In this document: positions 1,283 through 29,928 of the stretch, in pieces
Layout: each line of letters begins with the position of its first letter
Position numbering within the stretch: position 1 is the stretch's first letter
Virus record (IMG/VR): IMGVR_UViG_3300030406_005436
Location: 1 to 30,577 of that record
Direction: 5' to 3' (one strand)
DNA length: 30,577 nt
Source of the DNA: a virus
The notes under the pieces: model-generated
Database searches by the model: none
The model's input: the letters and a program-made list of their open reading frames with translations, nothing else
What the model was told of the DNA's origin: nothing
Program-made: the position numbers and the translations under genes

Positions 1283-2079
1283 TAGATGTCAGTTTGCCTT
1301 GTAGGACTATAAGATTTAGAATCAGAGAAGAATGAAGTTGTTTCACTGAATCCAAAATCATCATCTGGACCTGCATCAACAGGATCAGGTGTTACTGTGT
1401 ATCTTACCTCACGTTTTGAATTCTTAACGTCGGTATTAGCAGCATAATCGATTTGAACTTTTTTGATAAGTCCATCAGAAGATTCAGCAACAGGACCGAA
1501 TAGATAAGTTTTTGCAGTAAAACCAAGAGTATATATTAATGCTCTTCGAGTAGAAAAATCTCCTTCATAATCATCTTGAAAATTTATACTATCTAAAACT
1601 ATTGGTATATCTCTTTTCTCTCCAATTGATTTAACTAAATCCACAGTTAAATTAAAAGATGGTTGAAAATATGGTAGTATCTGTTCAATAATTTGTAAGG
1701 CATCATCATTTAACTTAGCAAGAATATTCAATTCAAATCCAATGTTATAGGGAACAGGCATGAAAACTTTCTTAATATTATTACCATCAGATGCTTTGAA
1801 TGTTTGTGTAACTCCTGTTTTTCGAGTTGAATCATAAGAAACATTATTCATTTCAAATGACATTCGAGGAAGAGTAATTCCAACAGGTTTGTTTAAGTCT
1901 GCTTGTTGTTCAAGTCTTGCAAGAAATTTTTGTGAAGGTCCATATGCCAAAGGAACTTTTAATTCACTATAAGTATTACCCGACTTATCATCATGCCGAA
2001 TATTAATCGCATTAAATAATGTTCCAAAAGAAACAATTGTCTTTCTAATTATTTCGTGATAGTAATAAGTTCCTAACAT
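1282..2079 (-). CDS. 15: gp15, tail completion and sheath stabiliser (tail terminator)
   Basis: The 265-residue product is close to T4 gp15 (272 residues). In T4, gp15 forms a hexameric ring that caps the sheath and tube and docks the finished tail to the head neck. Recognisable features are the start MLGTYYYHEIIRKTIVSFGT, typical of the family, then GTLFNAINIRH, and a beta-rich body with PVPYNIGFELNILAKLNDDA at about residues 112-131 and LPYFQPSFNLTVDLV. These match the conserved tail-terminator core. The C-terminal ~40 residues are polar and acidic (PVDAGPDDDFGF) and look disordered. The start codon shares one base with the gp14 stop and the stop shares one base with the gp16 start, so 14-15-16 form a translationally coupled run in T4 order. 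Confidence 0.92.
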   Translation of the reverse strand: MLGTYYYHEIIRKTIVSFGTLFNAINIRHDDKSGNTYSELKVPLAYGPSQKFLARLEQQADLNKPVGITLPRMSFEMNNVSYDSTRKTGVTQTFKASDGNNIKKVFMPVPYNIGFELNILAKLNDDALQIIEQILPYFQPSFNLTVDLVKSIGEKRDIPIVLDSINFQDDYEGDFSTRRALIYTLGFTAKTYLFGPVAESSDGLIKKVQIDYAANTDVKNSKREVRYTVTPDPVDAGPDDDFGFSETTSFFSDSKSYSPTRQTDI

Positions 2080-3506: not shown

Positions 3507-3512
3507 TATACA

Positions 3513-4358
3513 CTATCCTATAAAATCAAGAGGTGGTAACTCATATTCAGATATGAGTCTTTCTCTAATACTTTCTAGTTCTCTCTCAGCATCATCATAT
3601 ATTTGTCTTCCATTCATTTCTAAACCACCTGGCAATTTAACACCTTGGAACTTAATTAAATTTTGTCCCCATTGTCTTTTTATCAATGATGTAAGGTATA
3701 GTTTTAAGAAACTATCATTGTAAACACCAGTAAAGTTATCAGGATCTAAAATTCGATCACATTGAATAACTAAGAATGTTCCTACTTCTTGTGCTTTCCA
3801 ATCTATATCTAGATATAATCTATTTTGCCTCTTGTTAAATCTTATCTGTTTATCTGTAGTTAATAAGAAATCTATATCTTCCAAATATCTTTTGGTCATT
3901 GAATATTGTAGAAGATTGACGGAATTAAAGTAATATAAGTCATTTAAAAATAACTGATACTTAATACTAAACATTCCACCAGATATTGAACTTGTATCAA
4001 ATTTAAATATTCTATCAATCCCAACAACTGAATCTGGTACTTGTATAAAGTTTGATGTTTCGTAAAAATTAGAAGTGACAGTTCCTAAACCACTAATGTT
4101 TGTAGAATTTCCAGTGGTAGTAACAATTCCAACACCTGATGTTCCAGCTGCTTTACCTCTATCAATATCTTCTTGTGTTAACTCATATTTGAGGTACATT
4201 CTCTCAATACCATCAAAATGTCTCTCTCCAAATAATTGAAGAGCATCATCGACTAGATCATCTGCTTGATCATCATCGACGTTAATTTCTAATACTGGTG
4301 CACCTAATTTGCGAAAACAGTAATCAATTAATTCTTGTCTAGTGCTTGGTTTAGCCAT
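3513..4358 (-). CDS. 13: gp13, neck protein
   Basis: The 281-residue product fits gp13 (T4: 309 residues), a neck component that binds the portal and, with gp14, completes the filled head and receives the tail. Diagnostic parts are MAKPSTRQELIDYCFRKLGA, then VDDDQADDLVDDALQLFGER, HFDGIERMYLKYELTQEDID, DLYYFNSVNLLQYSMTKRYL and the C-terminal FLKLYLTSLIKRQWGQNLIK with LPGGLEMNGRQIYDDAERE. A short Gly/Thr/Ser-rich stretch at about residues 73-97 (GVGIVTTTGNSTNISGLGTV) breaks the conserved part and resembles the fibre-type sequence elsewhere in the window. The ATG shares one base with the stop of the fibre gene (TGATG) and has a strong Shine-Dalgarno at 4368-4372. Confidence 0.93.
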   Translation of the reverse strand: MAKPSTRQELIDYCFRKLGAPVLEINVDDDQADDLVDDALQLFGERHFDGIERMYLKYELTQEDIDRGKAAGTSGVGIVTTTGNSTNISGLGTVTSNFYETSNFIQVPDSVVGIDRIFKFDTSSISGGMFSIKYQLFLNDLYYFNSVNLLQYSMTKRYLEDIDFLLTTDKQIRFNKRQNRLYLDIDWKAQEVGTFLVIQCDRILDPDNFTGVYNDSFLKLYLTSLIKRQWGQNLIKFQGVKLPGGLEMNGRQIYDDAERELESIRERLISEYELPPLDFIG

Positions 4359-13304: not shown

Positions 13305-14891
13305 TTAGAATTCCAGAATGATTTTAACGTCTTCTTTTTGTCTGATGTTTCTTTCAACTTCTTGTCGATTATCAATGTAAATAACATTACCAGTCTTTTT
13401 ATTTATTTCAGGATTAGCAAGACCATTTGTGAACTGCACACCTAAATTGACTAATTTATTATTAACCGATGTTGAGATACCTGTAAAATTTTCTATTGCA
13501 GAAGAAAAACTTACTGAACCACCAGTAGAGAAGATTTTCCTCCCAGATTCAAAGGATAATACTTTTGAAGATGATTTTATACCATCAAAATCAGTATTGT
13601 CATGAGTAGTTTGATTTAAATAGGAATTTCTATCTTGAATATATTTCAAGACTCTAGTATCTCTATCATATGAAGACACAATTCCTTTTGCTAAATTTCC
13701 ACTTGAAGTTGTTTGTGCAATACCTACACCTATCATGTCATTATATGCTGATTCGGGTGTAAGACCTGGATCAGTGGTTAATTTTGCTGCAAATAAAGAT
13801 GAAAATTGTGATGTTGTAAGTATACCCGAATTTGAAGAATCTAAAGGATTTTTCAAAATTCCAACTTGCCCAAAATGTGTGTCAGTAGGAAAATCTTTTG
13901 TTGAATCATCAAAACGTGAATATACCAAAACTTTATCGGCACCTAGTTCAGTGTAAATATCAGTTCCATGACCTTTTGATGGTGGAATAATCGGTATTAA
14001 CTTTGCTCTAGTTGTTACGTTATTGTCGATGTCTGTGAGATCAACCATACCAAAAGTATATCCTGATCCACCATTAGTTATAAGTGTATCAGTAATTTTT
14101 CCATCACTATTAACTGTAACTCTTACTTGTGCTTCACTTCCATCACCAAGTATATTACATGAATGAGATCCTTCTGCATAACCAAAACCACCATTTTCGA
14201 TATAAACCTTTCTTATTTGATTTTTGTTTATATCAGAGTCTCCTGCTTCCCTTACTGCCTGTATTTGTGAATCAGTAGAAGTTGCCCAATCATTTGGTAA
14301 AACAATGTACTCTGTTGAATCAAATTTTACTACGTCACTTGGTGAAACTGTAAACAAATATTTCCATACATATGGATCTTGTGTACCAGCAGCTGCTGGT
14401 TCTAAATCAGTGAATGTTGGTTCGTCTAAAGATTCAACTCCTTTTGCATCAGTTGCAGTGGGATCACCAAATCCTCCATTTGATAAACAGATGTAAACTT
14501 TAAATTCAGAAGTTATTACATAGTAGTTTGTTTTGTATAAACTTCCAGTTTTAGAATTTGGTGCTTGATTTGTTTGCTCATTATAATCATGACGATAAAT
14601 ATCGTATCTTGTATTAGCTGCCCAAGTATGTTTTTTTACTACCCTTCGAATATTTGAAGAATTTATTTTTTTACCGAATAGTGAAGTATCTCTGTAGTGA
14701 GTTAGATATTGTTGATTATCGACAGGATCAGATGGCCAAGTCGGATTATCTGAGGTTGTTCTACCAAAACCAGCAGCTGATGGATTTGGCAATCCCAAGA
14801 ACACATAATAAGAATTACTAGAGTCTAAAACAGAATCTACAAAATTACCTGCGTTTACTATTCTAAATTGATCTGTTACTACCGCTGGCAT
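13305..14891 (-). CDS. 8: gp8, baseplate wedge protein (enlarged)
   Basis: The N-terminal part fits T4 gp8, a dimeric wedge protein that joins the gp10-gp7 complex during baseplate assembly. Diagnostic parts are MPAVVTDQFRIVNAGNFVDS, SNSYYVFLGLPNP, NIRRVVKKHTWAANTRYDIY, NYYVITSEFKVYICLSNGG and DPYVWKYLFTVSPSDVVKF. The product is 528 residues against about 334 in T4. The extra length includes two GG-x-GY repeats (IENGGFGYAEGSHS near residue 230 and ITNGGSGYTFGMVD near 275). The C-terminus NVIYIDNRQEVERNIRQKED, then VKIILEF, fits the family end. It starts 43 bases after the stop of the gp7-like giant, 17 bases downstream of a perfect TATAAATA box. There is no clear Shine-Dalgarno before the ATG. 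Confidence 0.93.
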   Translation of the reverse strand: MPAVVTDQFRIVNAGNFVDSVLDSSNSYYVFLGLPNPSAAGFGRTTSDNPTWPSDPVDNQQYLTHYRDTSLFGKKINSSNIRRVVKKHTWAANTRYDIYRHDYNEQTNQAPNSKTGSLYKTNYYVITSEFKVYICLSNGGFGDPTATDAKGVESLDEPTFTDLEPAAAGTQDPYVWKYLFTVSPSDVVKFDSTEYIVLPNDWATSTDSQIQAVREAGDSDINKNQIRKVYIENGGFGYAEGSHSCNILGDGSEAQVRVTVNSDGKITDTLITNGGSGYTFGMVDLTDIDNNVTTRAKLIPIIPPSKGHGTDIYTELGADKVLVYSRFDDSTKDFPTDTHFGQVGILKNPLDSSNSGILTTSQFSSLFAAKLTTDPGLTPESAYNDMIGVGIAQTTSSGNLAKGIVSSYDRDTRVLKYIQDRNSYLNQTTHDNTDFDGIKSSSKVLSFESGRKIFSTGGSVSFSSAIENFTGISTSVNNKLVNLGVQFTNGLANPEINKKTGNVIYIDNRQEVERNIRQKEDVKIILEF

Positions 14892-14934: not shown

Positions 14935-17900
14935 TTAAGATGGTGTAATTAATCCACCTGTTTTTGCAAGTGTATCCGATCCACCAGTTCTATTAATTGA
15001 TGGGAAAGTTGTTAATCCTGAGTCAACAATGAGTCCTTTTACATTAAATATTATAGGTGAGGATGATCTAGTGAATCCACTTATTTTTCCTACAGAGTAT
15101 TTTCCAACTGGTGCTGTTGCAAATCCAACAGCACTCATACCTGTTGTACTTGAATCTATACAACAGGTAACAAAACCAACATCACCATTACTGGTAAAAC
15201 TTGCAACCTGGTAGATGTTATCAACAAAAGTAACTCCAATACCTACAACTGCATCATCTTCCCCACCACTTATTAATGATCTTACCCCATCACCAACATT
15301 TGTATCAAAGATATAAATTGGATCACCAACTGCTATTGGATTAAAATCAGCACCACTTCTCTTAATTGTAAATTTGATAGCCAAATTAGTATTGAACATT
15401 GTAGTTGTAATACCAGTTACAATACCAGTGCTTTCTGTAATAGTAATTCCATTAGTTGTTAAATTTTCATATATTAATGGTGGTCTTTCAATTATTGTTT
15501 GAGGTGGATTTGTGTTTGTATAACCTGCACCAGCATTTGTAATCGTAGTAGATGTAACTGATCCGCTAGTTACCACAGCAGTAGCAGTAGCAGTTGTTCC
15601 AACACCGATTGGTGCAGCAAACTTAATAGCAACATTTCCAGAATATCCTGAACCAGCAGTTCCTATTGTTAGTGCAGTAATTGAACCAAGTCCAGAAACT
15701 GTGGCAGTAACTGCTGCACCAACTGTAGGTTTTCCTGAAATAAGATCAGCATTGAAAATAGGAGTAGCTTCATCTTCATAATTGAAATAATCCGCATTAT
15801 CAACAAAGAAGAATGTATCGGATTGAAGAACATCATCAATAATTTTTGCAGTTGGATTTATTCTTGGTTCAAGTTCAGCTCTCTTTTTAGAGAAGAAAAC
15901 TTTATTGATTGTTTTGTCAACTTTTTGTCTAATAAGTGTTAAAGGTCTTGATACAGTTTCACTAATACCTTGATTTTGATATACATTTGTTTCTAATGTG
16001 GTAGATGTTCTTATTCCTGTTACAGTACGATTATCCTGTGTTTGTATTTTGTTTCCAAGAGAATCAATAAATGACTCGATTCTAACTTCATCACCAGTTT
16101 TTATAATAGATTTTTGACCATCCACCACTTCAGAATCAATTCCTCCAGTACCTTTATAGAATAATATACTTATATCATCTCCTTTATCTTCACCTGATTC
16201 CCCGACTGGTGGTTCACTGAAGTTAATGGCAGTTCCACCTGTTATTGTATATGCTTTAATTGGTTCTTGGATTATACCATTAACTGTTACTAAAAATATA
16301 TTTTCAATTGATACTGAACTTAGTAAACTTTGAGAAGGCTCAACACTTATCAATTCATTATTAAGATTCAATGGGAATTTAGTTCTAACACCATTTTGAA
16401 GTGGTTTAATTGAATCTATATAATCAAATTCACCAAATTGCCACATTGCAAAAGAATCTGAATATATTTCATCTACAGAAAGAGTTGATTTTGGTGAAAA
16501 TGAACCCATTCCCTTGGCAGTAACTAAACCGACAGCCTCAACAACATCACCTTTTTTAAATGCAAAACCTGAATTAACTATTTCATATCTTGAAACTTCA
16601 AATAAAGTTGAACCAATTCCAGTTGTTGAACTTGCACTAACAATTGCATTTACTCTCAAATCAGTTCCTGTATCTGTCGTAGCACCAATACCTAATCTTG
16701 AAACACCAGTCACTGATAAATTTGAATATGATGGTTCAGACACAAAGACTTGAGGATCTTGATAACCTGATCCTTCAGCATCAATCGTAAATATCGCAGT
16801 TCCACCAACTCCAGCCACAGCACTTACCTGTGCTCCTGTACCAACATTAGTACCTACATTTACACGGAATACATTAGGAGTTATTTTAGTAACAACTGTA
16901 TTAATACCAGCAACTGGGTCAGTTGATCTTGGATATCCGTGAACAGTTTGGAAATTGTCTCTTGAACATGTGAATCTTATAGAAGCATCTTTTATCTTAA
17001 CTAAATCACCATCATTCATCCCATGGTTAGGAGATGTTATTATCATAATACCTGTTGTAGGATCATACTCAGCATTAGTTGCTGTAATATCAGCACCACC
17101 GTTTTTATCAAGACCATTTACATCAGCAGACACAAAACGATGCTCATATCCAAAGTCTTTAACAGTTACTCCTATTGATACTAGTCCATTATATCCAGAT
17201 CCAAATCTTAAACCACCAAACCAAGGATATGCATTACCAGATCCAACGTAGGTATGAGGAATTGTGCTTACACCTATTTTAACACCAAATACATTTGTTG
17301 CTGCAATTGATACTACGGGGAATTTATATCCTATCGTTCCATCAGGGAAGATAGTTGTTGTAACTCCAGCATAAGAAGGAGCACAATCAAATTCTAAACC
17401 TCCCAGTAATACTTCTTCATTAGAATTAATAAATCGATGTTCATTAACAGTTTTAATTGTCATTATACCTGTCACTTCATTATAGATGGCAGTTTGAATT
17501 CCTAATGCAGATCCACTATATGCAACCCCTACAATACTTGTTATTGTTCCACCAGCACCAGTAAGTGCTTTTACTTTTGCACCAACTGTAGGTGCATATC
17601 CTAGACCTGTAACTGTAGATCCGAATGAAATGGGAACTCCTCCTCTTGGCAACTCATTTAAGTTAATATTATTATTGGATATGAAAGGTGATCCATCAGA
17701 TGATGTAATTCCTGTAAAGAATACACTTGTGACACCACTTGCACCAGTTCCACTTTCAAGTATTTTAAAGTTTTTACTTGGATTGTTAATTGTTGATGGG
17801 GACTGGAATACACCGTTTATAAACAAAATACCAGATCCACCAGTCGTTCCTAAACCAACAGTATTTGCTCCACCCACTTTAAGAGTAAACGTAGTTGTTA

Positions 17901-20900
17901 CACCTGTAAATTGATCTGAAATATCATCATAAATTTCATTTGTGCCATAATCATTTCTCAAATAAACTCGACCATTAAAATCTGATCTTGGAGTATCTAA
18001 ATTACTTTCATCTTTGTCTGTATTAGGATTACCTCTTGGTGCATCAGTAAAGAACACTTTACTTCCAACAATATTATAATTACCTTTAAATCTCTCAACT
18101 ATAGTTCCATCAGAATGTGTGCTATTAATAGTACCAACAAATGATCTATCAACTTCAACTAAAGCAAATGTTCCTGAAGTTCCAACTGGTGATCCATTAG
18201 TTGTTGCAAATCCAACGTTTCTTACTCTAACATGCTCATCATCTATTTTTAATATATCATTTACAGATATTGTGCTAATACCACTTAAGTTAATAATTGT
18301 TGTGGTTAAACCTACTTGAGATCCCACATTATTTTCTAAAGTGTGTGTTACGTCTGTTCTAATTAGAGGGTATTGTGCAGTATCGTCAACTGATATTAAT
18401 GTCTTCTCATTACGTTTTGCCATGATAAATTCATGAGAATTACCTTCACCAATTCCAGTAAATGTAACTGCAGTACCTGCTCTTGTTGTGGATATAAAGA
18501 ATGCCTCCTTTGTAACTGATTTTGCAAAAACAGTTGTTGGTAAGGTATCAATTATTGATCCATTTTTAAATTGCATTGGAGTTGAACCTACACCAACAAA
18601 TGTAGATTTTGGTGTATAAATCAATTCTTCGTTCTCTCTAAAGAAATGATTAGGTATGGTAAATTTACCTGTAGATAAAATTACATCTGATGTAAGAGAT
18701 GGATTGAAATTTTTTGAGAAGATTGGAACATTATTATTTCTCAAATCAAATTCCACTCTATTAACTCTCTCACCTTCAAGTGCATTAAATTCTAGAACAG
18801 TATTATCTTCTACAACTGGTCCATATGTTAAGTTTAACGGATCGTTTACTTTATCAAGAGTGGTATAGAAACAGTGATTCAAAGAGACAACTGTAGAAAC
18901 ACCAACAGAATCGTCTGGATGAAATTTTATTTCAAAATGACTTGCTGTATAAGAAGCACTAAATGTTCCCAACCCTGATGAAGGATCGTACTCTGTATTA
19001 CTATCTTTTGTAACCGATAATGATCCAGATGGTTGAACATAAGCATTTACACCATCATGTAGTGCTGTGACTTCATGTACTGCCTTAGAAGCACCAATGC
19101 TAACTTCAACAACAGATTTTACAGTATTGAACAATTGTGAATTTAAACTAAGGAAAGTAGAAATACCTGTATTTACTGTTGTAATTCCTGAATATATTGA
19201 AGTTCTTTCAGAACCATTTAACTGATTGGGTGATTTAAATCTATATGTACCATTAGCATTTCCAACCGTTCCAAAACCAATATTTTTAGATTTTACTTTT
19301 ACTGGATTTGAACTGTTATTCACAAACGTCACAAACATGTAAGGATCAGAACCAATATTTCCAATGTAAGATGTTACAACACCAATTCGATTCAGGGTTA
19401 AACCATTAGAATCTGTATCAGCATATGCTTGTGCAATAAATGTATCATCACCTGAGTTTGTAACAAATGCTTCGATGAAATTCATGCTATTATCTACCGT
19501 ATCAATCGCATGAATAGAAGAATAATTTGATTCATAAAAAAGATCAGAACCAGTATTGTTAGTTAAATTATATATTGCAACAAGTGTTGTGTCATTTGCT
19601 GCACATGTTTGAATTCTAGAATTCAAGAATATAGGACCAACTATTTGTGCTCCAATACCATCAAGGTCTGTATTGAATTCTGATGTAAATATTTTTAAAT
19701 CATAATCAATGTCGGAGTTGGGATCTGATGTTGGTTCAAATCTAAATGTATCGATATCAGTTACATTATCTTTGTTTAATTTAAATGTTGCAAAATTAGA
19801 CTCTTCGGTAGTAGTTAACCCTATGCCAGAGTTTATTAATTTTGATTTTTCTAATAAAATGTTATTAGAACCATTACTTAATAATATAAACTCAGAAAGT
19901 TGTATTCGATTGGATGAACCTGAAGCACTTGACACTCTCACTAACAAATTCTTAAATACTCGTTGTGAACCAAATGTAAATAAATCAAGAAACTGATTAG
20001 GAGCTCCTTCTAAATTAGAGAATTGTTGATTTATATCATCAATAACTAATACATCATTTGAGTTACAACTTACATAACTAGATAATCTTATATTATCGAA
20101 GGATATTTTTCTTGTTGTATTATCTTCAAGAACATCCTCATCTCTAACTGTATCAATATTTCTGATTTCATCAACTCTTCTATCAGCAAATAAATCTAAT
20201 GTTACATCTAAACTCTCTGTGGATCCTATACTTGCACTACTTGTTGAGGTAATACCAGTGTCTGCAAAATTTTTCATTCCACTAGTATGTAAAATATTAT
20301 TCACAGAAGTTCTTAAATCTCTCCATTCAACAGGACTTTGAACAGAATATGACATGTTCTGATAATAATCATTATCAGGTATAACTTGAAAATCTTCACT
20401 CAATTTACCTATGTTGTCATTCCATCCAATATCTTTAAGAATTGAAAAGTCAGTTTTTAACCTTGCTTTATTATTAGAAACTTTTGATATTTTTGCTTGA
20501 CTTCCACTAATTTTACCTACTATTCGATCACCAATAAACAAAGTTTCTTTTGTAAATACTTTTAAGTTACCTACACTAGTTCTAATAATCTTAAATCTCC
20601 CAGATATTGCATTATTATTTCTAAAGACATTTAATTCTTCTCCTTCTACAAATCTGGATTGATTTTGGGTTACAAAAAATTGTGGATAATCTTGTTGATT
20701 TATTACATTTGCAAATGATGTTACAATAGTTTTTGCAATACCTGTATTACTTGTTCCATATTCTGATACATCAATAGTCACCTCTGCAAAACCACCAACA
20801 TTCCCATTAAAACCAGTTACCTTCAGTAAATTATATCCATAATCTTTCGAATTAAATCCTGATCCTGTACCAGAAATTTTTTCTATACCTTCAATAAATA

Positions 20901-23900
20901 CCCTGTCATTAACAGCAAATGGATTTGAAGAGAATTGTCCTTGAGGTGTTGCTAATTTACATGTATAGGATGTACCTGCATTTGATTTGACTTCTAATAT
21001 AGTGATACCATTAGTATTATTAATAGTTCTTAAGGTAACTGTATTTGCAGGTAATCCAACTGGAACCTCATTTACATTTACCGAAAGAATACTATTTTCT
21101 AACATTACGGGTTCTAAGAATCCACTTTCAATTTCTTGACCATTGTCTGAGTTTACAATTACTATATTTGGAGCAGTGATAAAATCAGATCCACCATTTG
21201 TTACACTTACAATACCTAAAGTTTGAGAATTTACTATTTCTATGGTTGGAGATATTAAACCTTCTGGTTCTAATGTTTTATCTGATGAGTATTCGAATCC
21301 TTCATTTATGACTCTTACAGATTCTACAAATCCAATTGTTTTTGATTTTGGTATAATTATTGCATCTCTACCAACTGAACTCTCCTGTACACCTACAAAA
21401 TTAGGTAATTTCTTATAATCTGACCCACCACTTATAATATTAATTTTATTAATACCACCAGACGCACTTTTGGATGATGTATTATATTTGATTACATCGC
21501 AGTCAGCAGGTGTGTATGATAGTTTTTCAGGTTTTTTATTTAAAAATATACTAAACGAAGTATCATCAATTTTTGTTATATTATATGATCCTGTGTATTC
21601 ACTATCAATAAATTTAATTTTAGAATTATTTTTAACATCTACATCAGTTGTGGTAGTAAATCCAGTTTTTTCTAGATTGTAATATAAGAATTCTGGTAAA
21701 CTAGTGCCATATCCGATAGTCAAAGTAGTAGCACTAGTAGTAGTTGCTATTCCGACTGTTCCAACACCTGTTATATTGAAATTATCAGTTTTTCCATCAG
21801 ATATAAATTCATTTTTAAATTCTTCATCATAAAATAATTTAAATTTATACCCTAATAGTGAGGCATCTGATAAATCAAATGTTAAATTATTATTTTTAAT
21901 TGAATGTATTTCTGGATTAATTTTTGAAATTGTTTGTGATGATCCACCAGTCGATCCTATACCTATTACATTAGGAATATTTTTAGTTGCATCAATTAAA
22001 GTTTCACATAATTTTATGTTATTGCTGTCAACTTTGTATACGAAATAATTTTTATTAAATAATCCCTCTGGCAATAAATTAGATGAATACTTAATTTTAT
22101 CTCCAGTCACAAATTCGTGATTGTCAATATTAATTGAATTGGTGGTGGTGTTTATACTTGTTGAATTGAATCCAATAGGATTGAATAAAATAAATCCAGT
22201 TTCTAAATCTCTAGAAATCCTGATCGCAGTTGATGTTCCAATACCAACTGACAATTTAGGATTGACTGTCAAATTAATTTGATCATCAGTCTCCAAACCA
22301 TGAGTTGGAACAGTCGGAGAAGTTGATATACTTACAACTGTGTTTATCTTTTCAATATCACATTTTACTTGATCAAAATCAGTTTCTAGTAAGAATTTAT
22401 CATTATCTCCATTTGTTAAACTTGTAAAATAAACCTCATCAAAGTTAGCACCTAATCCAGTTTTTATTCCAATTGTATCCTTATTCCTATTAACAGCATA
22501 TAGTGTTGAAGGTATATTAAAAGTAGTTGCTGGATTATTATCTGTAGATATTGCAATGTTAGCACCAGCTGGTTTAGTTAATAATAATTTTTGATTTGTC
22601 TTTAATCCATGATTTTCTAAAGTAATCTGTCTTATAGGTGTATTTCTTATTACATTTTTTCCAGCAAAATCGAAGGTAACTGTATGTTCAGTTCCATCAA
22701 ATGTACCAACTCCAACTGTTTGATTTGGATTAAAAAATATTTTTTTGTTAACTTGTGATTCAAATTTTGGTATTGATTTATCAAATGTGAATTCATTTGA
22801 TATAAAGTTAATTTTTGAACCTTTTGGATGTTCAGTTCCAAATGATGGATCAGAAGATCTCTCTACTGTTAAAACATTTATATCTTTGTATATGTTTAAA
22901 ATTTTAAGAGTTTCAGTCCCTATACCAATACTATTTCCTACAGAAATATTGGATGGTACATTAGATACAAATATTTCAGTTGTTAATCCTGCAGATGGTG
23001 ATCCACTAATTGTTGAAATTGAAATACAAGAAATTGTATTTACTCCAATTTTAACTTGTCCATTTAGAGGTGATAAATCTGTGGTTAATCCTGCAATGCT
23101 TACAACATCATCAGATTTAAAATTATGACTATTTAATGTGGATGCAGTTATAGTCTTTTCAGACCATGTAAGCACCACATCTTCTATTTTTTCTACAGTT
23201 GTATTTAAATTTGATATAGATTTACCATTTACTTCTGATATTTCTGCTGACAAATTGCTACCACCTGTATTAGTATCATCAAATTTTAACAATTCACCAA
23301 CTTTATAATCAGATCCATTATTTAAAATATCAAATCCTGTAATGGATCCAGAGGATATGGAAGTAATTTCTATCTGTTGATCATTTATCTCATTAGTCTC
23401 AACTAGAAAATCATTATTAGCAAAATCGTCTGATACTTTATATGGGAAAGTATTTCTTAAAATATTTCCTTCATTAAAATTAAATTTATTTTGTAAAATA
23501 TTATTAAAGTTATGTTCTATTTTTTTAGATCTGTAAGTTGATCCTATGAAGTAAGGGAAAACAGGTTTATTATTTGAGTCTACAGTAGCATGATAAACAT
23601 ATGTTCCTTGAGGAAATTCTATAGTTTTTTCAAATCTACCGTTGTGTTCATCCAAATCTCCATTATCTGTAAAAGTATAATCTTCTACAAAGTATCCATT
23701 ATCAAAATCAGGTCTATCAATAACATTTGATGGTATTAATTCATATCCAGATTCTAATATTTTTTTACCAACATTATTACTCGGAAGGTTTGATGGGTCT
23801 GCAAAACCAAATGGTCCGTAAATTGGGTTACCATCATAAGACCATCCAATTAATCCAGATACCTTATCACTACCATCTTTAAATGGACTTGTAGAGTATC

Positions 23901-26900
23901 CAATGTAACTAAATTTTAACTTATTATCAGACTCCTCTAGGTTCTCAAAATTTCCTCCAAAATTTTTATTTAGAGTTAAAGATCTTACATTTGGATCAAA
24001 TAAAGCATTAGTCCCTGTAGACTTAACTTTAATATTAGTTGACGTTGAATATCCAATACCAGAATTGATTATAATAACATTTTCTAATTTTTGATTTACA
24101 ATAACTGGTCTCAATTGAGCACCAAAACCTAGACCTGTTGGATCCTCAATGACAACATCAGGAACTGAGAAATACTCACTTCCCTTATTTTCAATATTAA
24201 TATCAATTATTTCTCCATTTTCAATTACTGGTTTTAATGATGCATTCTTACCATTTTTTAAAGTTACTAAGGGTTTTCTGTGATTATTCAGTACTGTTGA
24301 TCCATATCCAGTTCCTGATTCATAAAGATATAATTGTTGTATTGTTCCTTTTACTTTTGGTGTTGCGACTATTGTTTGTGATGCAGGTATTGTTGTTCCA
24401 CTTCCGAGAGTGTCAAAATTAACAAAAATTTTTATATCAGGGAACATAAAAGTTTGTAAACCTGTTCCAGATTCTCCAAATATAGTTTTTTCACGTCTGA
24501 TGTAATTTGATTGAATTGTCCCTCCAATTCCAGCATTACTTAAACTAAATGAATTATCATCATTTTTTAAAACATAATATTTGTTATTTGTATTCAAACC
24601 AACAATGTTACCAGAATATTCAATTAAATCACCATCCTGAAATCCATGATTGTTGAAAGTGATTCTATTAGTAATAGAGGATATCCCAGACTGTTTTACG
24701 AAAAGTTTTCTATTTGTATAATTTTGTCCACCATCTACAACATTAACACCTAATAATGAGTTTCTTAAACCAACTTTAAATACTTGATTTCCTAGACCAG
24801 TATTTACTTTAAAATTAATTTTTGGAGCACCTGCTTGGTAGTTTTCAAAAGTTTCAAATAATTCTATTGTTGTACTATTGGTCTTTCCAACATAATAAAT
24901 TGCACCATTTGATAATCTATCAGTCCCTACACCCACAATATTAATTGGTTCACGAGAATTAGAATCATAAATTACAGATTCTCCATCTGCAAAATTATGA
25001 TCCCCAATAAATGTTATAGTTTCAGATACAGTATTGATACCACTACCACCATTTGTTTTAGGTTCAGTGTTAAAAAATACTTTTCTATATCTTGTTCCTA
25101 TTACAGGTTCCAATACACATCCTGTACCATTACCACCCGTAACACCAATTGATACTACTTTATCAATATCAAAATCTTGAGGATCTATCAACACATCTTC
25201 AATTCTACCACTAATGACAGGTTGAACTAAAGCAGTTGTACCAATTCCATTTGATATGGTAATGTTAGGTAAATTAATAACATCATAATTATTACCACCA
25301 TTTAATAAATCAACAGATTCTAAAGGTCCAAAAAATATTTTGTCTTCAGATTTATAGTTTGTAATTTCAACTCCATTAACTAACATTCCTGTCTGTCCTA
25401 TGGGGGTTGGATCATCATTACCATTTGAAATGTTTTCACTCAAATTAAATTTTTTAAATAATTTCTGAGATCCAATTTCGTTTGATCTTTGAGAAAATAA
25501 TGTAAAATTATGAATACTAGTATCTGAGTCTTTCTTGAATGTTAGATTTTTACCATTATCAATTGCCGAGGGAGATCCATATAACTTAAATGTTTTATTA
25601 TTAACGAGTTTTACAAAATAAGAACCTGTCTCCAACCCTACAAGTGAACCACCTTGGGATTCGTAAAATATTTTTTGTCCATTTTTAAATGGAACAAGTA
25701 CTCCTAAAGATATGCTTGAAAATATATCATCATTTACAACATCAGTGAGAGTTGCAATTCCTGAAGATGCTGAAGTTACAGTACCAAATCCCACTGAAAC
25801 AGATTTTGTATCTTCAGTTATCTGATTGAAATATGGATGTGATTGATTAGGATTATTTGTAAATGATGGTAACGAATTAGATGCTACATATGCCGTATCA
25901 CCTTGAGTATAAACATTTTGAATATCAGATATTAAATTAGTTCCAAATTCAATTGGTGTGTTTAAACTATTTGGTTTATTAAGTCTTTTTCTTAACTTAT
26001 ACTTACTTTTATCTTCTTCTGTTACAAAATCTGGGATAATATCATTATCACTTAATGTGATTGTATTACCTGCAATACCATTTACGTAGATTGTGTTTGA
26101 AGATTCCACTATAGTATTAGTTCCTCTATTCACAATGTCTACAATATCTCCCTCCTTTAAACTTGATCTATCAATAGTTCCTCCCAATGTCATTCCATTA
26201 GAATCTTTGTCAACGATAAAATATGATGAACTGGTGTTATAAATCCAAGAATTGCAAAAAATTTCTTTGAATGATGTTTTATTATTTTCGACTTTATCAC
26301 CAATATTCTTAACCGTTATTACTTCACCCTCATTGACATCAATTATATCACTTTGTTCAAATTCAGATAAAACTCCAGTTAATCTGAGAACCACCTTTCT
26401 ATTCAAATCACCATCTTCAAATCCAAAATATGTAATATTTGATCTTACATTCTGTACTGGATCAATTGTGACACCTACACCTGTACAATTTAAAAACTGA
26501 TTTACTGTTTTATCAGTGTATGTTATTGTGTTTGTTCCAGATATAATAGTTCCTGCAGTTCCAAAACCAACAGTTGAATCAACAGTAATCACACTTGAAT
26601 TAGGTTCAACCTTTTCAATTGCTTTTGTATTTGGTACAACTACAAAATCCCCTGCAATATCAGAACTTTCGTCATAACCAACAAATAAACCAATTTTATA
26701 ATATGTGGTAATTCCACTCAATCCAGAATCTTTTCTTTCAAAAGGTTCAATTTCGGATATTGAGGCATTTACATCTATATCAAGATCACTTCTGAATAAA
26801 GTTTGTCCTGTTAAACCTTTTAACAATGATTGTCCCTTCAATCTTCTAGGATTACCTTCTAAGAGTTCTGCAACACAAACTCTTCTTCTAACATAATCAG

Positions 26901-27609
26901 ATGATGACGGTTTTATTAATCTTTCTTCTAAATTTAAAATATTAGGTGTTATACCATATAAAATGTTAAAAAGTATTCTAAATGATTCTTCTGTTCCTTT
27001 TGTTTGATATAATGATCTTGCTTCACCTATGAAAGTTCCAACATCCAAGTTTGATTGGAAATTAGTTTCTTCTAATCCTGGTAAAAATGTTTTTTTGAAT
27101 TTTTTATAAAATTCTTTTAGAAATAAAGAACTTAAATTTTGAACTATGGATGAATTTGTATGCTCTGCTGCAGATGAAGAACTGAATACTAAGTCTTCTT
27201 TAGTTGTTTCCGAATGATAACTTGTAATACCACTAAATCCACGTTCACATCCTGTAAAAGTATTAGTTGTAATTCCAGTGTAAGTGATTATCTCATTATC
27301 AATTTTTAACAAACCATATTGATTTGGAAATCCTTTCGTACTAGTAACATTAATTATTTTATCACCAATAGTAGTGATACCAACTGTAGTCGAACTATCA
27401 ACTATAACTTCTGGTGTTAAATTAGTAACATTTAAATATTGATCTAAATTATCAACTAAATCACTTGAACCACCTTGAAATTCTTGAGAAATATAATATT
27501 GTTTTAAAAAATCAACAGTCAGAGGACTTTCATCCCGAATAAATTCAGGAAGTTGATTTGATAATATATCACCTATTTTGACTTTACTTACAATCCCTGT
27601 TTGTATCAT
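14935..27609 (-). CDS. 7: Giant gp7-like baseplate wedge protein with YHYH domain and repeats (4224 aa)
   Basis: At 4224 residues this gene takes 41% of the window. Residues 1-280 resemble the conserved C-terminal core of T4 gp7: LPEFIRDESPLTVDFLKQYY near 16, RSLYQTKGTEESFRILFNIL near 200-220 (T4 gp7 has a very similar RS...STKG.E.S...LF..LY block) and LKGLTGQTLFRSD near 262. Its place between gp6 and gp8 fits gp7, the organiser of the wedge. The remaining ~3900 residues are beta-repeat modules: about 13 GG-x-GY units, about 10 NHG/HNF-GD units, two DNEIITYTG-type units, a YHYH domain at about 1250-1355, two VNGxxQ modules (about 3225-3275 and 3730-3805) and a PTAKIIDDVL...FFVDNAD block at about 3914-3942. 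There is no signal peptide. The ATG overlaps the gp6 stop (ATGA) with AGGAC upstream. The repeat part probably forms a large baseplate extension or adhesin. The gp7 assignment is from memory of the family, not an alignment. Confidence 0.85.
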   Translation of the reverse strand: MIQTGIVSKVKIGDILSNQLPEFIRDESPLTVDFLKQYYISQEFQGGSSDLVDNLDQYLNVTNLTPEVIVDSSTTVGITTIGDKIINVTSTKGFPNQYGLLKIDNEIITYTGITTNTFTGCERGFSGITSYHSETTKEDLVFSSSSAAEHTNSSIVQNLSSLFLKEFYKKFKKTFLPGLEETNFQSNLDVGTFIGEARSLYQTKGTEESFRILFNILYGITPNILNLEERLIKPSSSDYVRRRVCVAELLEGNPRRLKGQSLLKGLTGQTLFRSDLDIDVNASISEIEPFERKDSGLSGITTYYKIGLFVGYDESSDIAGDFVVVPNTKAIEKVEPNSSVITVDSTVGFGTAGTIISGTNTITYTDKTVNQFLNCTGVGVTIDPVQNVRSNITYFGFEDGDLNRKVVLRLTGVLSEFEQSDIIDVNEGEVITVKNIGDKVENNKTSFKEIFCNSWIYNTSSSYFIVDKDSNGMTLGGTIDRSSLKEGDIVDIVNRGTNTIVESSNTIYVNGIAGNTITLSDNDIIPDFVTEEDKSKYKLRKRLNKPNSLNTPIEFGTNLISDIQNVYTQGDTAYVASNSLPSFTNNPNQSHPYFNQITEDTKSVSVGFGTVTSASSGIATLTDVVNDDIFSSISLGVLVPFKNGQKIFYESQGGSLVGLETGSYFVKLVNNKTFKLYGSPSAIDNGKNLTFKKDSDTSIHNFTLFSQRSNEIGSQKLFKKFNLSENISNGNDDPTPIGQTGMLVNGVEITNYKSEDKIFFGPLESVDLLNGGNNYDVINLPNITISNGIGTTALVQPVISGRIEDVLIDPQDFDIDKVVSIGVTGGNGTGCVLEPVIGTRYRKVFFNTEPKTNGGSGINTVSETITFIGDHNFADGESVIYDSNSREPINIVGVGTDRLSNGAIYYVGKTNSTTIELFETFENYQAGAPKINFKVNTGLGNQVFKVGLRNSLLGVNVVDGGQNYTNRKLFVKQSGISSITNRITFNNHGFQDGDLIEYSGNIVGLNTNNKYYVLKNDDNSFSLSNAGIGGTIQSNYIRREKTIFGESGTGLQTFMFPDIKIFVNFDTLGSGTTIPASQTIVATPKVKGTIQQLYLYESGTGYGSTVLNNHRKPLVTLKNGKNASLKPVIENGEIIDINIENKGSEYFSVPDVVIEDPTGLGFGAQLRPVIVNQKLENVIIINSGIGYSTSTNIKVKSTGTNALFDPNVRSLTLNKNFGGNFENLEESDNKLKFSYIGYSTSPFKDGSDKVSGLIGWSYDGNPIYGPFGFADPSNLPSNNVGKKILESGYELIPSNVIDRPDFDNGYFVEDYTFTDNGDLDEHNGRFEKTIEFPQGTYVYHATVDSNNKPVFPYFIGSTYRSKKIEHNFNNILQNKFNFNEGNILRNTFPYKVSDDFANNDFLVETNEINDQQIEITSISSGSITGFDILNNGSDYKVGELLKFDDTNTGGSNLSAEISEVNGKSISNLNTTVEKIEDVVLTWSEKTITASTLNSHNFKSDDVVSIAGLTTDLSPLNGQVKIGVNTISCISISTISGSPSAGLTTEIFVSNVPSNISVGNSIGIGTETLKILNIYKDINVLTVERSSDPSFGTEHPKGSKINFISNEFTFDKSIPKFESQVNKKIFFNPNQTVGVGTFDGTEHTVTFDFAGKNVIRNTPIRQITLENHGLKTNQKLLLTKPAGANIAISTDNNPATTFNIPSTLYAVNRNKDTIGIKTGLGANFDEVYFTSLTNGDNDKFLLETDFDQVKCDIEKINTVVSISTSPTVPTHGLETDDQINLTVNPKLSVGIGTSTAIRISRDLETGFILFNPIGFNSTSINTTTNSINIDNHEFVTGDKIKYSSNLLPEGLFNKNYFVYKVDSNNIKLCETLIDATKNIPNVIGIGSTGGSSQTISKINPEIHSIKNNNLTFDLSDASLLGYKFKLFYDEEFKNEFISDGKTDNFNITGVGTVGIATTTSATTLTIGYGTSLPEFLYYNLEKTGFTTTTDVDVKNNSKIKFIDSEYTGSYNITKIDDTSFSIFLNKKPEKLSYTPADCDVIKYNTSSKSASGGINKINIISGGSDYKKLPNFVGVQESSVGRDAIIIPKSKTIGFVESVRVINEGFEYSSDKTLEPEGLISPTIEIVNSQTLGIVSVTNGGSDFITAPNIVIVNSDNGQEIESGFLEPVMLENSILSVNVNEVPVGLPANTVTLRTINNTNGITILEVKSNAGTSYTCKLATPQGQFSSNPFAVNDRVFIEGIEKISGTGSGFNSKDYGYNLLKVTGFNGNVGGFAEVTIDVSEYGTSNTGIAKTIVTSFANVINQQDYPQFFVTQNQSRFVEGEELNVFRNNNAISGRFKIIRTSVGNLKVFTKETLFIGDRIVGKISGSQAKISKVSNNKARLKTDFSILKDIGWNDNIGKLSEDFQVIPDNDYYQNMSYSVQSPVEWRDLRTSVNNILHTSGMKNFADTGITSTSSASIGSTESLDVTLDLFADRRVDEIRNIDTVRDEDVLEDNTTRKISFDNIRLSSYVSCNSNDVLVIDDINQQFSNLEGAPNQFLDLFTFGSQRVFKNLLVRVSSASGSSNRIQLSEFILLSNGSNNILLEKSKLINSGIGLTTTEESNFATFKLNKDNVTDIDTFRFEPTSDPNSDIDYDLKIFTSEFNTDLDGIGAQIVGPIFLNSRIQTCAANDTTLVAIYNLTNNTGSDLFYESNYSSIHAIDTVDNSMNFIEAFVTNSGDDTFIAQAYADTDSNGLTLNRIGVVTSYIGNIGSDPYMFVTFVNNSSNPVKVKSKNIGFGTVGNANGTYRFKSPNQLNGSERTSIYSGITTVNTGISTFLSLNSQLFNTVKSVVEVSIGASKAVHEVTALHDGVNAYVQPSGSLSVTKDSNTEYDPSSGLGTFSASYTASHFEIKFHPDDSVGVSTVVSLNHCFYTTLDKVNDPLNLTYGPVVEDNTVLEFNALEGERVNRVEFDLRNNNVPIFSKNFNPSLTSDVILSTGKFTIPNHFFRENEELIYTPKSTFVGVGSTPMQFKNGSIIDTLPTTVFAKSVTKEAFFISTTRAGTAVTFTGIGEGNSHEFIMAKRNEKTLISVDDTAQYPLIRTDVTHTLENNVGSQVGLTTTIINLSGISTISVNDILKIDDEHVRVRNVGFATTNGSPVGTSGTFALVEVDRSFVGTINSTHSDGTIVERFKGNYNIVGSKVFFTDAPRGNPNTDKDESNLDTPRSDFNGRVYLRNDYGTNEIYDDISDQFTGVTTTFTLKVGGANTVGLGTTGGSGILFINGVFQSPSTINNPSKNFKILESGTGASGVTSVFFTGITSSDGSPFISNNNINLNELPRGGVPISFGSTVTGLGYAPTVGAKVKALTGAGGTITSIVGVAYSGSALGIQTAIYNEVTGIMTIKTVNEHRFINSNEEVLLGGLEFDCAPSYAGVTTTIFPDGTIGYKFPVVSIAATNVFGVKIGVSTIPHTYVGSGNAYPWFGGLRFGSGYNGLVSIGVTVKDFGYEHRFVSADVNGLDKNGGADITATNAEYDPTTGIMIITSPNHGMNDGDLVKIKDASIRFTCSRDNFQTVHGYPRSTDPVAGINTVVTKITPNVFRVNVGTNVGTGAQVSAVAGVGGTAIFTIDAEGSGYQDPQVFVSEPSYSNLSVTGVSRLGIGATTDTGTDLRVNAIVSASSTTGIGSTLFEVSRYEIVNSGFAFKKGDVVEAVGLVTAKGMGSFSPKSTLSVDEIYSDSFAMWQFGEFDYIDSIKPLQNGVRTKFPLNLNNELISVEPSQSLLSSVSIENIFLVTVNGIIQEPIKAYTITGGTAINFSEPPVGESGEDKGDDISILFYKGTGGIDSEVVDGQKSIIKTGDEVRIESFIDSLGNKIQTQDNRTVTGIRTSTTLETNVYQNQGISETVSRPLTLIRQKVDKTINKVFFSKKRAELEPRINPTAKIIDDVLQSDTFFFVDNADYFNYEDEATPIFNADLISGKPTVGAAVTATVSGLGSITALTIGTAGSGYSGNVAIKFAAPIGVGTTATATAVVTSGSVTSTTITNAGAGYTNTNPPQTIIERPPLIYENLTTNGITITESTGIVTGITTTMFNTNLAIKFTIKRSGADFNPIAVGDPIYIFDTNVGDGVRSLISGGEDDAVVGIGVTFVDNIYQVASFTSNGDVGFVTCCIDSSTTGMSAVGFATAPVGKYSVGKISGFTRSSSPIIFNVKGLIVDSGLTTFPSINRTGGSDTLAKTGGLITPS
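23530..23865 (-). other. YHYH domain within the gp7-like giant
   Basis: Residues ~1250-1355 of the giant match the YHYH domain (PF14240) in order: IGWSYDGNPIYGPFGFADPS, then DLDEHNGRFEKT, FPQGTYVYHATVDS and VFPYFIGSTYR. The name-giving Y-H-Y-H is Y-V-Y-H here, so the first histidine is replaced. The domain occurs in secreted bacterial proteins and in structural proteins of marine T4-like phages; its function is unknown, with metal or ligand binding a common guess. Confidence 0.85.
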
Positions 27610-29525
27610 GTCCTAATTATACTTCCATTTGGATAACTTGATGAATAAAAATCTCTGGTGAATTGTACTCCAGAAACTTCATCACCTGATGTAATTACAT
27701 CCCTAACCATATTTATTGAACTATTTGAGATGTTTAATGAGATGTATAAATCTTTCAAACCTACAACATCATTAGATCTTGGAAATGCTTGAACTTCAAT
27801 AACATTATTGGGTTTAACTGTTGATATGATATTGATTGTTGACACATTTACTTCTCCTTTTTCATAATCTATTGATCCTGCAGAAGAAATTACATTTCCA
27901 ATACTACCATCATCTAAAATTTCAATAATTCTTAAAACTCCAGTTTTTAAATCACTATTTGGAACATCCGACATATAATATGTTCCACTTTTTCCAAAAA
28001 TACTAAAACCAGTTGATTTTATATTATACCCATTTGGATCTACATAAAATTTATTTCCAAAACATAATTCATATTGTGTAAATTGATTTACAGATGCCTG
28101 TAAATTTCTTCTCATACGAATTTTTGTAATATTTGATGTTATTCCTTGATCAGTGTCATCAATAACCTTTAACAATTTACTGTATTTTAATCTTCCACCA
28201 AATTGATTCAAATTAATTGATTTTGAATATAAATTTAATGAATTTACGATATTTGTTCTTAAAAAATTTGGTGATGATACAAATGAATCATTATAATATA
28301 CATTTGACTCTAGTTCAACATATAAAATTTTCAAATCTACGATTTTTTGATTGATTCCTGAAATTGTATATTGCTTTAACTTTGATAATATTTGATTTTT
28401 TGTAAAATCTGATATTAAATCACCATTTTGAGGTTTAATACTAATTACAACTGTACCAAACTCTGGTGGATCTAGTTCTTCACCTCCAATTACCGAAACT
28501 GACTCCGTATTTGGATATATTTTCTTAATTACTGCTTCATAGTCTCTTGATGTGACTGCTCGATTCTGTGAAGAGTAAGTAATCGGTGAAAAATACTTAA
28601 TTGAGTCAATTGATTCAATATCTCCTCCATTTTGTGCCTTTTCATTGGTAATTACTTCAGGAGTATCAAAATCAACTCCTTCAATTTCACCATTTAATGA
28701 ATTTATTTTTGTTAGTCTACCAGAGAAAGAAAAATTAGTTGCACCGTTACCATTTTTCCCATCTGTTGTAATATATTTGACAATAATTTCATCACCATCC
28801 TGATTAGCACCATTTCCTAATTTTTTACCAAAAAATCCATCTCCAAATTTTAATTCATATCTTTCATCTTGAATTTCACTAATTAAAAATATTTTTGAAT
28901 CTGAATTTACGTCAATTATATCGTTTACTAGTGTATATTCAGTTCCATTTCCCTTCGAACCAGATGGTCTGACATGAACTACAATTTTTGAAGTATCAAT
29001 AAATGCATTATCTAATATAAATCTTTGATCAAGTGATCCATCGTATGTAAATGTCTTTTCAAGATAGGTTCCTTGATAGATATTGATATTTTCAAACTTA
29101 GCAATGTTGTCTACAACGTTTGCAGTGATAGGTTCGACAATTGCATATGTATATGACTCATTATCAACATCACCAACGCAAACTATACCAGGTTCTAAGG
29201 TGACTGAACTCACACTACTATTGATAGTAACGTCAAATGACACCTGTGCGTCTGCTGCGGTTCTGGAACGTGGTCTGTATCCAATATTTCCAGCCAAAGA
29301 CACGACATTTTGTCTCAAAGTGGCAGAATCTAAGAAAGATTCGTTAACTGCCATGTTTGAGTTGAATGCAGTGATGTAAGTATTGTATGCAAGAGTGTCA
29401 ATTAAGACAGAAAAGTTCGAACCATCGAAGTCAAAGTCCGAAAAATCGGAATTTGCACGTAAATAGTCCTTAATTGACGTTTTGATTTGATCGAAATCAA
29501 GATTTGTGAAGTTTGAGAAAGGCAT
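27606..29525 (-). CDS. 6: gp6, baseplate wedge protein (gpJ-like)
   Basis: The 639-residue product matches T4 gp6 (660 residues), the baseplate J-like protein. Gp6 dimers form the continuous inner iris of the baseplate that opens on sheath contraction. Features are MPFSNFTNLDFDQIKTSIKD, NFSVLIDTLAYNTYITAFNS, then FLDSATLRQNVVSLAGNIGY and RPRSRTAADAQVSFDV, all characteristic of the family N-terminus. The middle has ERYELKFGDGFFGKKLGNGA and ITYSSQNRAVTSRDYEAVIK with IYPNTESVSVIGGEE, typical of J-like proteins. The length is normal, with no repeat insertion, unlike gp8 and gp14. The ATG lies one base after the gp25 stop with AGG upstream, and the stop overlaps the giant gene start by four bases (ATGA). 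Confidence 0.95.
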   Translation of the reverse strand: MPFSNFTNLDFDQIKTSIKDYLRANSDFSDFDFDGSNFSVLIDTLAYNTYITAFNSNMAVNESFLDSATLRQNVVSLAGNIGYRPRSRTAADAQVSFDVTINSSVSSVTLEPGIVCVGDVDNESYTYAIVEPITANVVDNIAKFENINIYQGTYLEKTFTYDGSLDQRFILDNAFIDTSKIVVHVRPSGSKGNGTEYTLVNDIIDVNSDSKIFLISEIQDERYELKFGDGFFGKKLGNGANQDGDEIIVKYITTDGKNGNGATNFSFSGRLTKINSLNGEIEGVDFDTPEVITNEKAQNGGDIESIDSIKYFSPITYSSQNRAVTSRDYEAVIKKIYPNTESVSVIGGEELDPPEFGTVVISIKPQNGDLISDFTKNQILSKLKQYTISGINQKIVDLKILYVELESNVYYNDSFVSSPNFLRTNIVNSLNLYSKSINLNQFGGRLKYSKLLKVIDDTDQGITSNITKIRMRRNLQASVNQFTQYELCFGNKFYVDPNGYNIKSTGFSIFGKSGTYYMSDVPNSDLKTGVLRIIEILDDGSIGNVISSAGSIDYEKGEVNVSTINIISTVKPNNVIEVQAFPRSNDVVGLKDLYISLNISNSSINMVRDVITSGDEVSGVQFTRDFYSSSYPNGSIIRT

Positions 29526-29526
29526 T

Positions 29527-29928
29527 TTACCTTGTTGCCTCTAATATAAATGAATATTCTTGAGTTGGGAACTCTTGACCGACGATATCATAAATTATGG
29601 TGACTTCAAACTGATTCGAATCAGGTTGAGGGTCAACTTCAACCCTTACATTATCAACTCTTGGTTCAAAATTTATAACTGAGGTCTTAATTTGCTCTTG
29701 AATCTCGTTTGCAGTACCAAAATCAACAAAATCAAAGAGACTTCGATACACATCTGATCCAAAATCAGGATTAAAAAACTTTTCAGTTGGTATTGTTTCG
29801 ACAATATTACGTACAGAACGACTAATTGCCCTCTCATTCTTGAGAATTGGTAAATCTTTAGTAACTGGATGGGGTTCAAACGATAAACTTATGTCTTTAA
29901 ACGCTTTCGACACCCTTGTATTTGCCAT
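29527..29928 (-). CDS. 25: gp25, baseplate wedge protein (GPW/gp25 family)
   Basis: The 133-residue product is the length of T4 gp25 (132 residues) and has the family pattern: DISLSFEPHPVTKDLPILKN at the N-terminus, AISRSVRNIVET, the FNPDFGSDVYRSLFD motif, then EIQEQIKTSVINFEPRVDNV with the conserved E-P-R-V, and VDPQPDSNQFEVTIIYDIVG near the end. Gp25 sits at the junction of sheath and baseplate, with gp6 and gp7 in the wedge core. P2 gpW and T6SS TssE are its relatives. It is the first gene after a TATAAATA late promoter box and is followed by gp6 with a one-base gap. The leader before the ATG has no good Shine-Dalgarno. Confidence 0.96.
   Translation of the reverse strand: MANTRVSKAFKDISLSFEPHPVTKDLPILKNERAISRSVRNIVETIPTEKFFNPDFGSDVYRSLFDFVDFGTANEIQEQIKTSVINFEPRVDNVRVEVDPQPDSNQFEVTIIYDIVGQEFPTQEYSFILEATR

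Follow-up and report, generated by a model that had tools for sequence, protein, structure and literature searches.

A giant gp7-type baseplate wedge protein of a marine T4-like phage, with a core that appears split by a large insertion

What does a phage encode in an uninterrupted reading frame of 4,224 codons lying between two baseplate genes? The question is raised by a virus record of 30,577 bases, analysed here in its entirety and referred to as the window, in which the minus strand carries all the credible genes and this frame encodes the largest protein. A preliminary description of the locus had regarded the product as the conserved core of the T4 baseplate wedge protein gp7, confined to the first ~280 residues and followed by some 3,900 residues of modular beta repeats. 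The frame on which that description was based is open throughout on the minus strand (Table 1). A frameshift or assembly artefact was considered and set aside, as neither the window gene nor any other full-length gene in the comparison has an interrupted frame. Broken copies, real or due to sequencing error, are found in the S-SKS1 record (16992-29387), where the gp7 gene lies in four frames and is partly unannotated, and in contig G001 (2281-14894), where it lies in two.

The gene is located directly between gp6 and gp8, the position held by gp7 in T4, and the overlap of 4 nt between the gp6 stop and its own start is likewise found in T4. The order gp25-gp6-X-gp8 is common to the window, P-SSM2, S-T4, HTVC008M and phiM12, and gp6-X-gp8 is also the order in Cr30 and T4. 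Beyond the VrlC-type gene, neck and terminase genes follow in the order of T4 gp13-gp16, the assignments of gp13, gp15 and gp16 being based on position relative to P-SSM2.

Table 1. Location of the gp7-slot gene, its neighbours and its putative internal parts in the window
Feature	Residues	Position	Strand	Basis or remark
gp25		29527..29928	-	PF04965 3.5e-15
gp6		27606..29525	-	PF21379 3e-18; phrog_219 2e-193; 4-nt overlap with gp7 start
gp7-slot gene, 4,224 aa, 456 kDa		14935..27609	-	ORF; phrog_2885 'baseplate wedge subunit' E=0; gp6-X-gp8 slot
Element H, N-terminal helical part of gp7-like core (QLPxFI...FLxxYYxSQE)	5-61	27427..27597	-	profile
Beta-barrel module 1, inserted	about 66-150	27160..27414	-	AlphaFold and VIA-align
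Element S, TKG-E-S-LF-LY block	153-242	26884..27153	-	T4 gp7 profile match
Probable gp7 domain V equivalent, broken by beta-barrel module 2 (324-392)	~238-415	26365..26898	-	AlphaFold model
Insertion between domain V and M, ~1,976 aa, 215 kDa, mostly unique sequence		20437..26364	-	S-M spacing; colinear in 10 phages
YHYH domain, within insertion	1246-1346	23572..23874	-	PF14240 4e-18
Element M, second conserved gp7 element (DxxYYQ..SY...W......H..G)	2392-2477	20179..20436	-	profile, hhalign
C-terminal tail, 1,747 aa, 186 kDa	2478-4224	14938..20178	-	separate downstream gene in DSL-LC02
Least conserved stretch	2600-2800	19210..19812	-	mean identity 0.22-0.26, lowest together with 601-700
Only clearly copy-number-variable zone	~3412-3600	16810..17376	-	ten-phage alignment
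gp8		13305..14891	-	PF09215 6e-12; phrog_438 1e-140
DUF4815/VrlC-type protein, 2,444 aa		5965-13299	-	downstream of gp8

Over residues 2-3566 the product matches phrog_2885, a profile of 4,179 residues, nearly at full length (3,136 bits), and copies in P-SSM2, P-SSM4, ACG-2014f and other genomes are named 'gp7' or 'baseplate wedge initiator' in GenBank. The giant gp7s of cyanomyoviruses in this family (P-SSM2, 5,195 aa; S-T4; ACG-2014f; S-CAM7) share with the window protein the slot and colinearity over the whole length, and differ from it in length and in the variable zone. A giant cyanophage gp7 is an existing annotation; the less ordinary part is the split core with its detachable tail. Naming is inconsistent across the relatives, which appear as 'putative fiber' in syn9, 'head closure Hc2' in HTVC008M and 'virion structural protein' in S-PM2. 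The HTVC008M name, borne by the gp7-slot protein I899_gp055 (23436-26486), is wrong and probably reflects small beta modules that it shares with gp14-type proteins (phrog_460).

The gp7-like core begins at about residue 5 with element H, whose profile is found once in each of 20 gp7-slot proteins (kyanoviruses, phiM12, Cr30, pf16, BUCT-ZZ01) and gave no direct sequence detection in T4 gp7. The beta-barrel module that follows, modelled with AlphaFold, was aligned by VIA-align to 9in6_M, 8rk3_b and 8jov_1 (Z 9.9-10.7). Cr30, pf16 and phiM12 lack this module and have 3-21 residues between H and S; the gap amounts to 3 residues in Cr30, to 91 in the window (one beta-barrel module) and to about 597 in syn9, S-RIM8 and P-SSM4. 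The STKG-E-S-LF-LY block and the GQ segments noticed in the preliminary description are present in the N-terminus, the TKG-E-S-LF-LY block at residues 201-217 and the GQ segments after it. The S profile matches T4 gp7 at 725-758 (iE 2.2e-7), with a score that none of 2,000 shuffles of T4 gp7 reached, and hhalign pairs window residues 183-331 with T4 gp7 703-829 (E 2.2e-5).

Downstream of S, a domain V equivalent is suggested by modelling. The AlphaFold model of residues 240-415 superposes on T4 gp7 765-844 (5iv5_BJ) with an rmsd of 2.1 over 79 residues and a Z of 7.5, which lies in the background range for such models; a second VIA-align match of the region is 5hx2_A (Z 7.1), and the register of the structural alignment is the one predicted by the S sequence match. 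The model of residues 1-620 is of moderate confidence (pLDDT 65), Foldseek returned nothing for it at E<0.001, and T4 gp7 was listed only by a second look with VIA-align. The domain V profile alone has no sequence match to T4 gp7, and phmmer and hmmsearch with the N-terminal core and M found nothing relevant among PDB sequences. The gp7-like part is not restricted to the first ~280 residues as had been proposed, since domain V appears to reach ~415 and a further gp7 element, M, lies far beyond it. The N-terminal ~640 residues of T4 gp7 have no counterpart in the window protein, much as had been described: domains I-IV are absent, and the T4 gp7 profile matches in relatives are confined to 720-790. 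HTVC008M, Cr30 and phiM12 also begin with H, so domains I-IV mark the T4 form and not the core; the membership claimed here is that of the gp7 core family only.

Element M reads NDYYQNMSYSV...EWRDL...ILHTSGM in the window and SLYYQDYSYIIK...EWRDYL...HPAGF in relatives, so that an element of the YY...HP-GF type follows domain V, as in gp7. It corresponds to about 864-910 of T4 gp7 (profile match 865-908, iE 1.2e-4; hhalign 3.7e-4), with a score reached by one of 2,000 shuffles, and to positions 671-740 of phrog_17744. In PF23786, a family of 284 positions, residues 164-242 of HTVC008M align with 153-230 and its M region with 231-276. As S ends at about 230 and M starts at about 231, nothing separates the two pieces in the compact family, and the long spacing elsewhere represents an insertion.

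Twenty gp7-slot proteins ranging from 523 to 7,312 aa each contain a single H, S and M, always in that order, and S and M are also present in T4 gp7. The distance between S and M amounts to 107 residues in T4 and rises through BUCT-ZZ01 (190), pf16 (236), Melnitz-2 (377), HTVC008M (507), Cr30 (538), phiM12 (797), S-PM2 (1,572) and S-CREM2 (1,625) to the window (2,150), P-SSM2 (2,213) and P-SSM4 (2,795). DSL-LC02 has 3 residues after M, S-CREM2 6 and T4 124, against 1,747 for the window protein and 3,692 for P-SSM4. The plan of a core followed by an extension of ~3,900 residues consequently gives way to that of a gp7 core split by an insertion of ~2,000 residues, with a separable tail behind it. 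An incomplete search of the literature found no published description of this split-core architecture.

Direct similarity to T4 gp7 is weak, though in the right place; one shuffle in 2,000 reaches the score of M, and H and V are undetected by sequence. Profile searches link the two ends of the size range through intermediates. T4 gp7 matches phrog_2885, phrog_17744 and phrog_26741 within 646-759, the window protein matches these families with both S and M, and HTVC008M also matches phrog_17744 and phrog_26741. Gp7-slot proteins bearing S and M are likewise encoded by Sinorhizobium phage phiM12 (1,007 aa), Caulobacter phage Cr30 (767 aa), Pseudomonas phage pf16 (523 aa) and Synechococcus phage BUCT-ZZ01 (607 aa). 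The Pfam models PF21427, PF21428 and PF21456 give no match to the window protein at E<=1; they were built on the T4 branch and match T4 gp7 itself. PF23786 does not match the window protein, and HTVC008M, Cr30, pf16, phiM12 and Melnitz-2 score above its curated cut-off. The full core is found once per genome in seven complete phage genomes, in four of which the T4 gp7 profile detects only the gp7-slot gene and in three nothing; a second gp7 gene, named beforehand as counter-evidence, was not found in these seven relatives. The identification as a gp7-type wedge protein is upheld by gene order, by the profile matches through intermediates and by the fold match of domain V in the expected register, its Z of 7.5 being within the background range. 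On this comparative evidence, the frame very probably encodes an orthologue of gp7, in a T4-like phage of the sea (Kyanoviridae-type), with the core split by an insertion; this degree of confidence refers to identity and split architecture, not to the function of the extra mass.

The sequence added to the core is not an array of modular beta repeats, as first thought, but nearly all unique. TRF detected no DNA tandem repeats in the frame, a self-scan in 80-residue pieces returned a single pair of internal repeats with E<1e-3, and iterated profiles recovered three small module families with three, four and two units (about nine). Moreover, the protein is colinear with nine others, eight of them at 34-48% identity and the closest contig at 97%. 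On these results the repeat-array reading was rejected. Across the ten phages the sequence is single-copy except in the variable zone, where P-SSM2 (407+122+120+113 aa, some 800 residues in all), Sf-CH8 and S-T4 carry insertions and which is mostly lost in S-SRM01.

The YHYH domain within the insertion belongs to a type that has been predicted to act as a metal hydrolase (PMC7824862). Three Asp are invariant in all 47 sequences compared, and the His positions are kept in 32, 19 and 11 of the 47, the first being missing in the window, so that a conserved His triad with Asp is not seen. Since the His are not conserved and the Asp are invariant, binding or structure is expected rather than catalysis, and the residue pattern suggests that the domain here is probably not an enzyme. 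A model of residues 1080-1420 (pLDDT 77) resembles Ig-like folds weakly at most (Z<=4.3), and it yielded no fold for the domain. The gp7 proteins of HTVC008M, phiM12 and Cr30 gave no YHYH match.

The separability of the tail is documented by the freshwater phage DSL-LC02, whose gp7 of 2,514 aa can be aligned over its full length to residues 2-2455 of the window protein and has its stop directly behind M. Another gene begins 3 nt on and encodes 1,432 aa that align to window residues 2954-4207 (E 4e-44). A sequencing error was rejected as the cause of this split, because the stop and the ATG recur in related contigs that are 96, 66 and 59% identical. In S-CREM2, gp7 is without the tail and is directly followed by gp8, and tail content varies among lineages. 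The proposal that the extension is fused to the wedge, instead of docked as a separate fibre, depends on the lineage, since DSL-LC02 and its relatives encode the tail as a gene of its own directly after gp7. Two contigs close to DSL-LC02 have a D/G-rich low-complexity end after the M of gp7, with no stop there, and in the group of P-SSM4 (24113-29677) and S-RIM8 (22006-27897) two additional genes, one gp9-like and one for a protein of 1,443-1,550 aa, are located between gp7 and gp8.

In T4, gp7 joins the inner wedge to the periphery of the baseplate and swings in the hexagon-to-star switch. There are six copies of it, in contact with gp6, gp8, gp9 and gp10 (PMC3004832), and the wedge is common to T4 and the type VI secretion system (T6SS), as (gp6)2-gp7 and (TssF)2-TssG respectively (PMC6300606). 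With T4 gp7 (PF21428, PF21427, PF21456; 5IV5, 5HX2) the window protein shares the gene order, S, a probable domain V fold, M and a presumed gp6 partner, whereas it differs in the absence of domains I-IV, in the S-M distance and in the length of the tail. The gp7 proteins of the PF23786 (Baseplate_wedge) type, including those of Cr30, pf16, phiM12, BUCT-ZZ01, Melnitz-2 and HTVC008M, carry H, S and M in order and represent a compact or intermediate state of the core, of 523-1,016 aa against 4,224 in the window. TssG of T6SS, P2 gpI and TIGR02242 have the same wedge role (PMC6300606); residues 18-127 of phiM12 gp7 (H and S) match TIGR02242 at 1e-5, below the model cut-off, and the window protein gave no match to it.

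By analogy with T4, six copies of gp7 would be present, each on a gp6 dimer. Both ends of the insertion lie within the wedge core, so the insertion is expected to be looped out from the wedge and held at both ends, and the tail would hang from it by one end. Together they may form the periphery of the baseplate and do the work of T4 gp7 domains I-IV and of gp10-gp12. The mass of about 2 MDa per baseplate given in the preliminary description is of the right order: with six copies as in T4, the whole proteins would amount to 2.7 MDa, and insertion plus tail to roughly 2.4 MDa. Cyanomyoviruses have been reported to be without wac, g10, g11, g12, g34, g35 and g37 (PMC2984593), and the periphery may accordingly be supplied by the enlarged gp7. 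A putative role of the extra mass as a skirt or adhesin is plausible; the likeliest function of the extension is to touch the surface of the host or to place receptor-binding proteins on it, a putative function to which we give about an even chance.

In S-CREM2, gp7 has been detected in virions by mass spectrometry, with 91 unique peptides (PMC10665884). The gp7-slot protein of S-PM2d, S-PM2d081 (3,048 aa), acquired one non-synonymous mutation early in chemostat coexistence with the host (PMC9910659), in a phage other than that of the window. No kyanovirus baseplate structure was found in the literature searched. Tentatively, and with a probability of little more than a third, the wedge organiser can be pictured as a host-contact platform, in which a double-anchored loop of ~2,000 residues and a detachable tail would replace T4 domains I-IV and gp10-gp12 and couple host contact to the trigger of sheath contraction; as part of the same tentative picture, the tail would be fused, split off or lost according to lineage.

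Different accounts of the locus have to be weighed against this interpretation. Gp7 was listed among the non-cyanophage core genes by Sullivan 2010 (PMC3037559), and a 2020 study stated that cyano- and pelagimyophages lack T4 gp7 and that VrlC apparently takes its place (PMC7029224), which would make the frame an unrelated structural or fibre protein. This agrees with the annotation of the syn9 copy as a fibre. However, S and M are significant in the gp7-slot protein, whereas the VrlC of the window, P-SSM2 and HTVC008M gave no significant match to either and an insignificant score for H, and gene order places the frame in the gp7 slot. VrlC was rejected as a gp7 substitute because it is without S and M while the gp7-slot protein has both, and the whole account is very improbable. 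A gp7 core extended at the C-terminus alone, in which the M-like stretch would be an unrelated recurrent motif, is unlikely as well. The strongest single T4 match does fall in the N-terminal part, but M occurs once per gp7-slot protein examined and always after S, even in the small proteins of pf16 and Cr30; it aligns to T4 gp7 865-908 and, in PF23786, right after S, and the gp7 of DSL-LC02 stops just past it.

A stronger contender, to which we give somewhat less than an even chance, accepts the gp7 identity and the split and takes the extra mass for an inert scaffold that makes the baseplate wider or stiffer and supports fibres without host contact. It accords with the colinearity of the protein throughout, at 34-48% identity in most of the ten phages, with the non-conserved His positions of the YHYH domain, and with the fact that T4 gp7 carries gp9 and gp10 and is itself not receptor-binding (PMC3004832). 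In contrast, the differing content of the tail among lineages, the fast-evolving stretch at 2600-2800 and the early mutation in S-PM2d081 (PMC9910659) speak against inertness. For the interpretation as a split gp7, the fixed order of the core elements and their presence once each, the slot, the colinearity of insertion and tail and the separability of the tail were obtained by computation. Identity and split are well supported by these sequence comparisons; what the extra mass does is an inference.

In the injection machine of T4, gp7 is a part of medium size; here it is the largest protein encoded in the fragment. Its detection, in split form and at up to seven times the size, in phages that are abundant in the sea contradicts the published statement that it is missing. 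The graded series from 523 to 7,312 aa, with fixed core elements, names the sites at which the extra mass would have to be attached. How cyanomyoviruses do without gp10-gp12 and classical tail fibres becomes a testable structural question.

Further observations concern other genes of the window. Beta modules of the GSGY and TKGF types are also present in its gp8, in gp14 (2079-3506) and in the VrlC-type protein; unrelated virion proteins of this phage draw on a common pool of small domains. Upstream of gp25, a gene at 29971-30576 matches phrog_3704 ('ferredoxin' in PHROGs) at 1e-88 and no Pfam family, and its name looks doubtful. At the opposite end, the gene at 1-840, cut by the end of the window, contains an N/G-rich low-complexity stretch at 643-705 with a 6-base tandem repeat.
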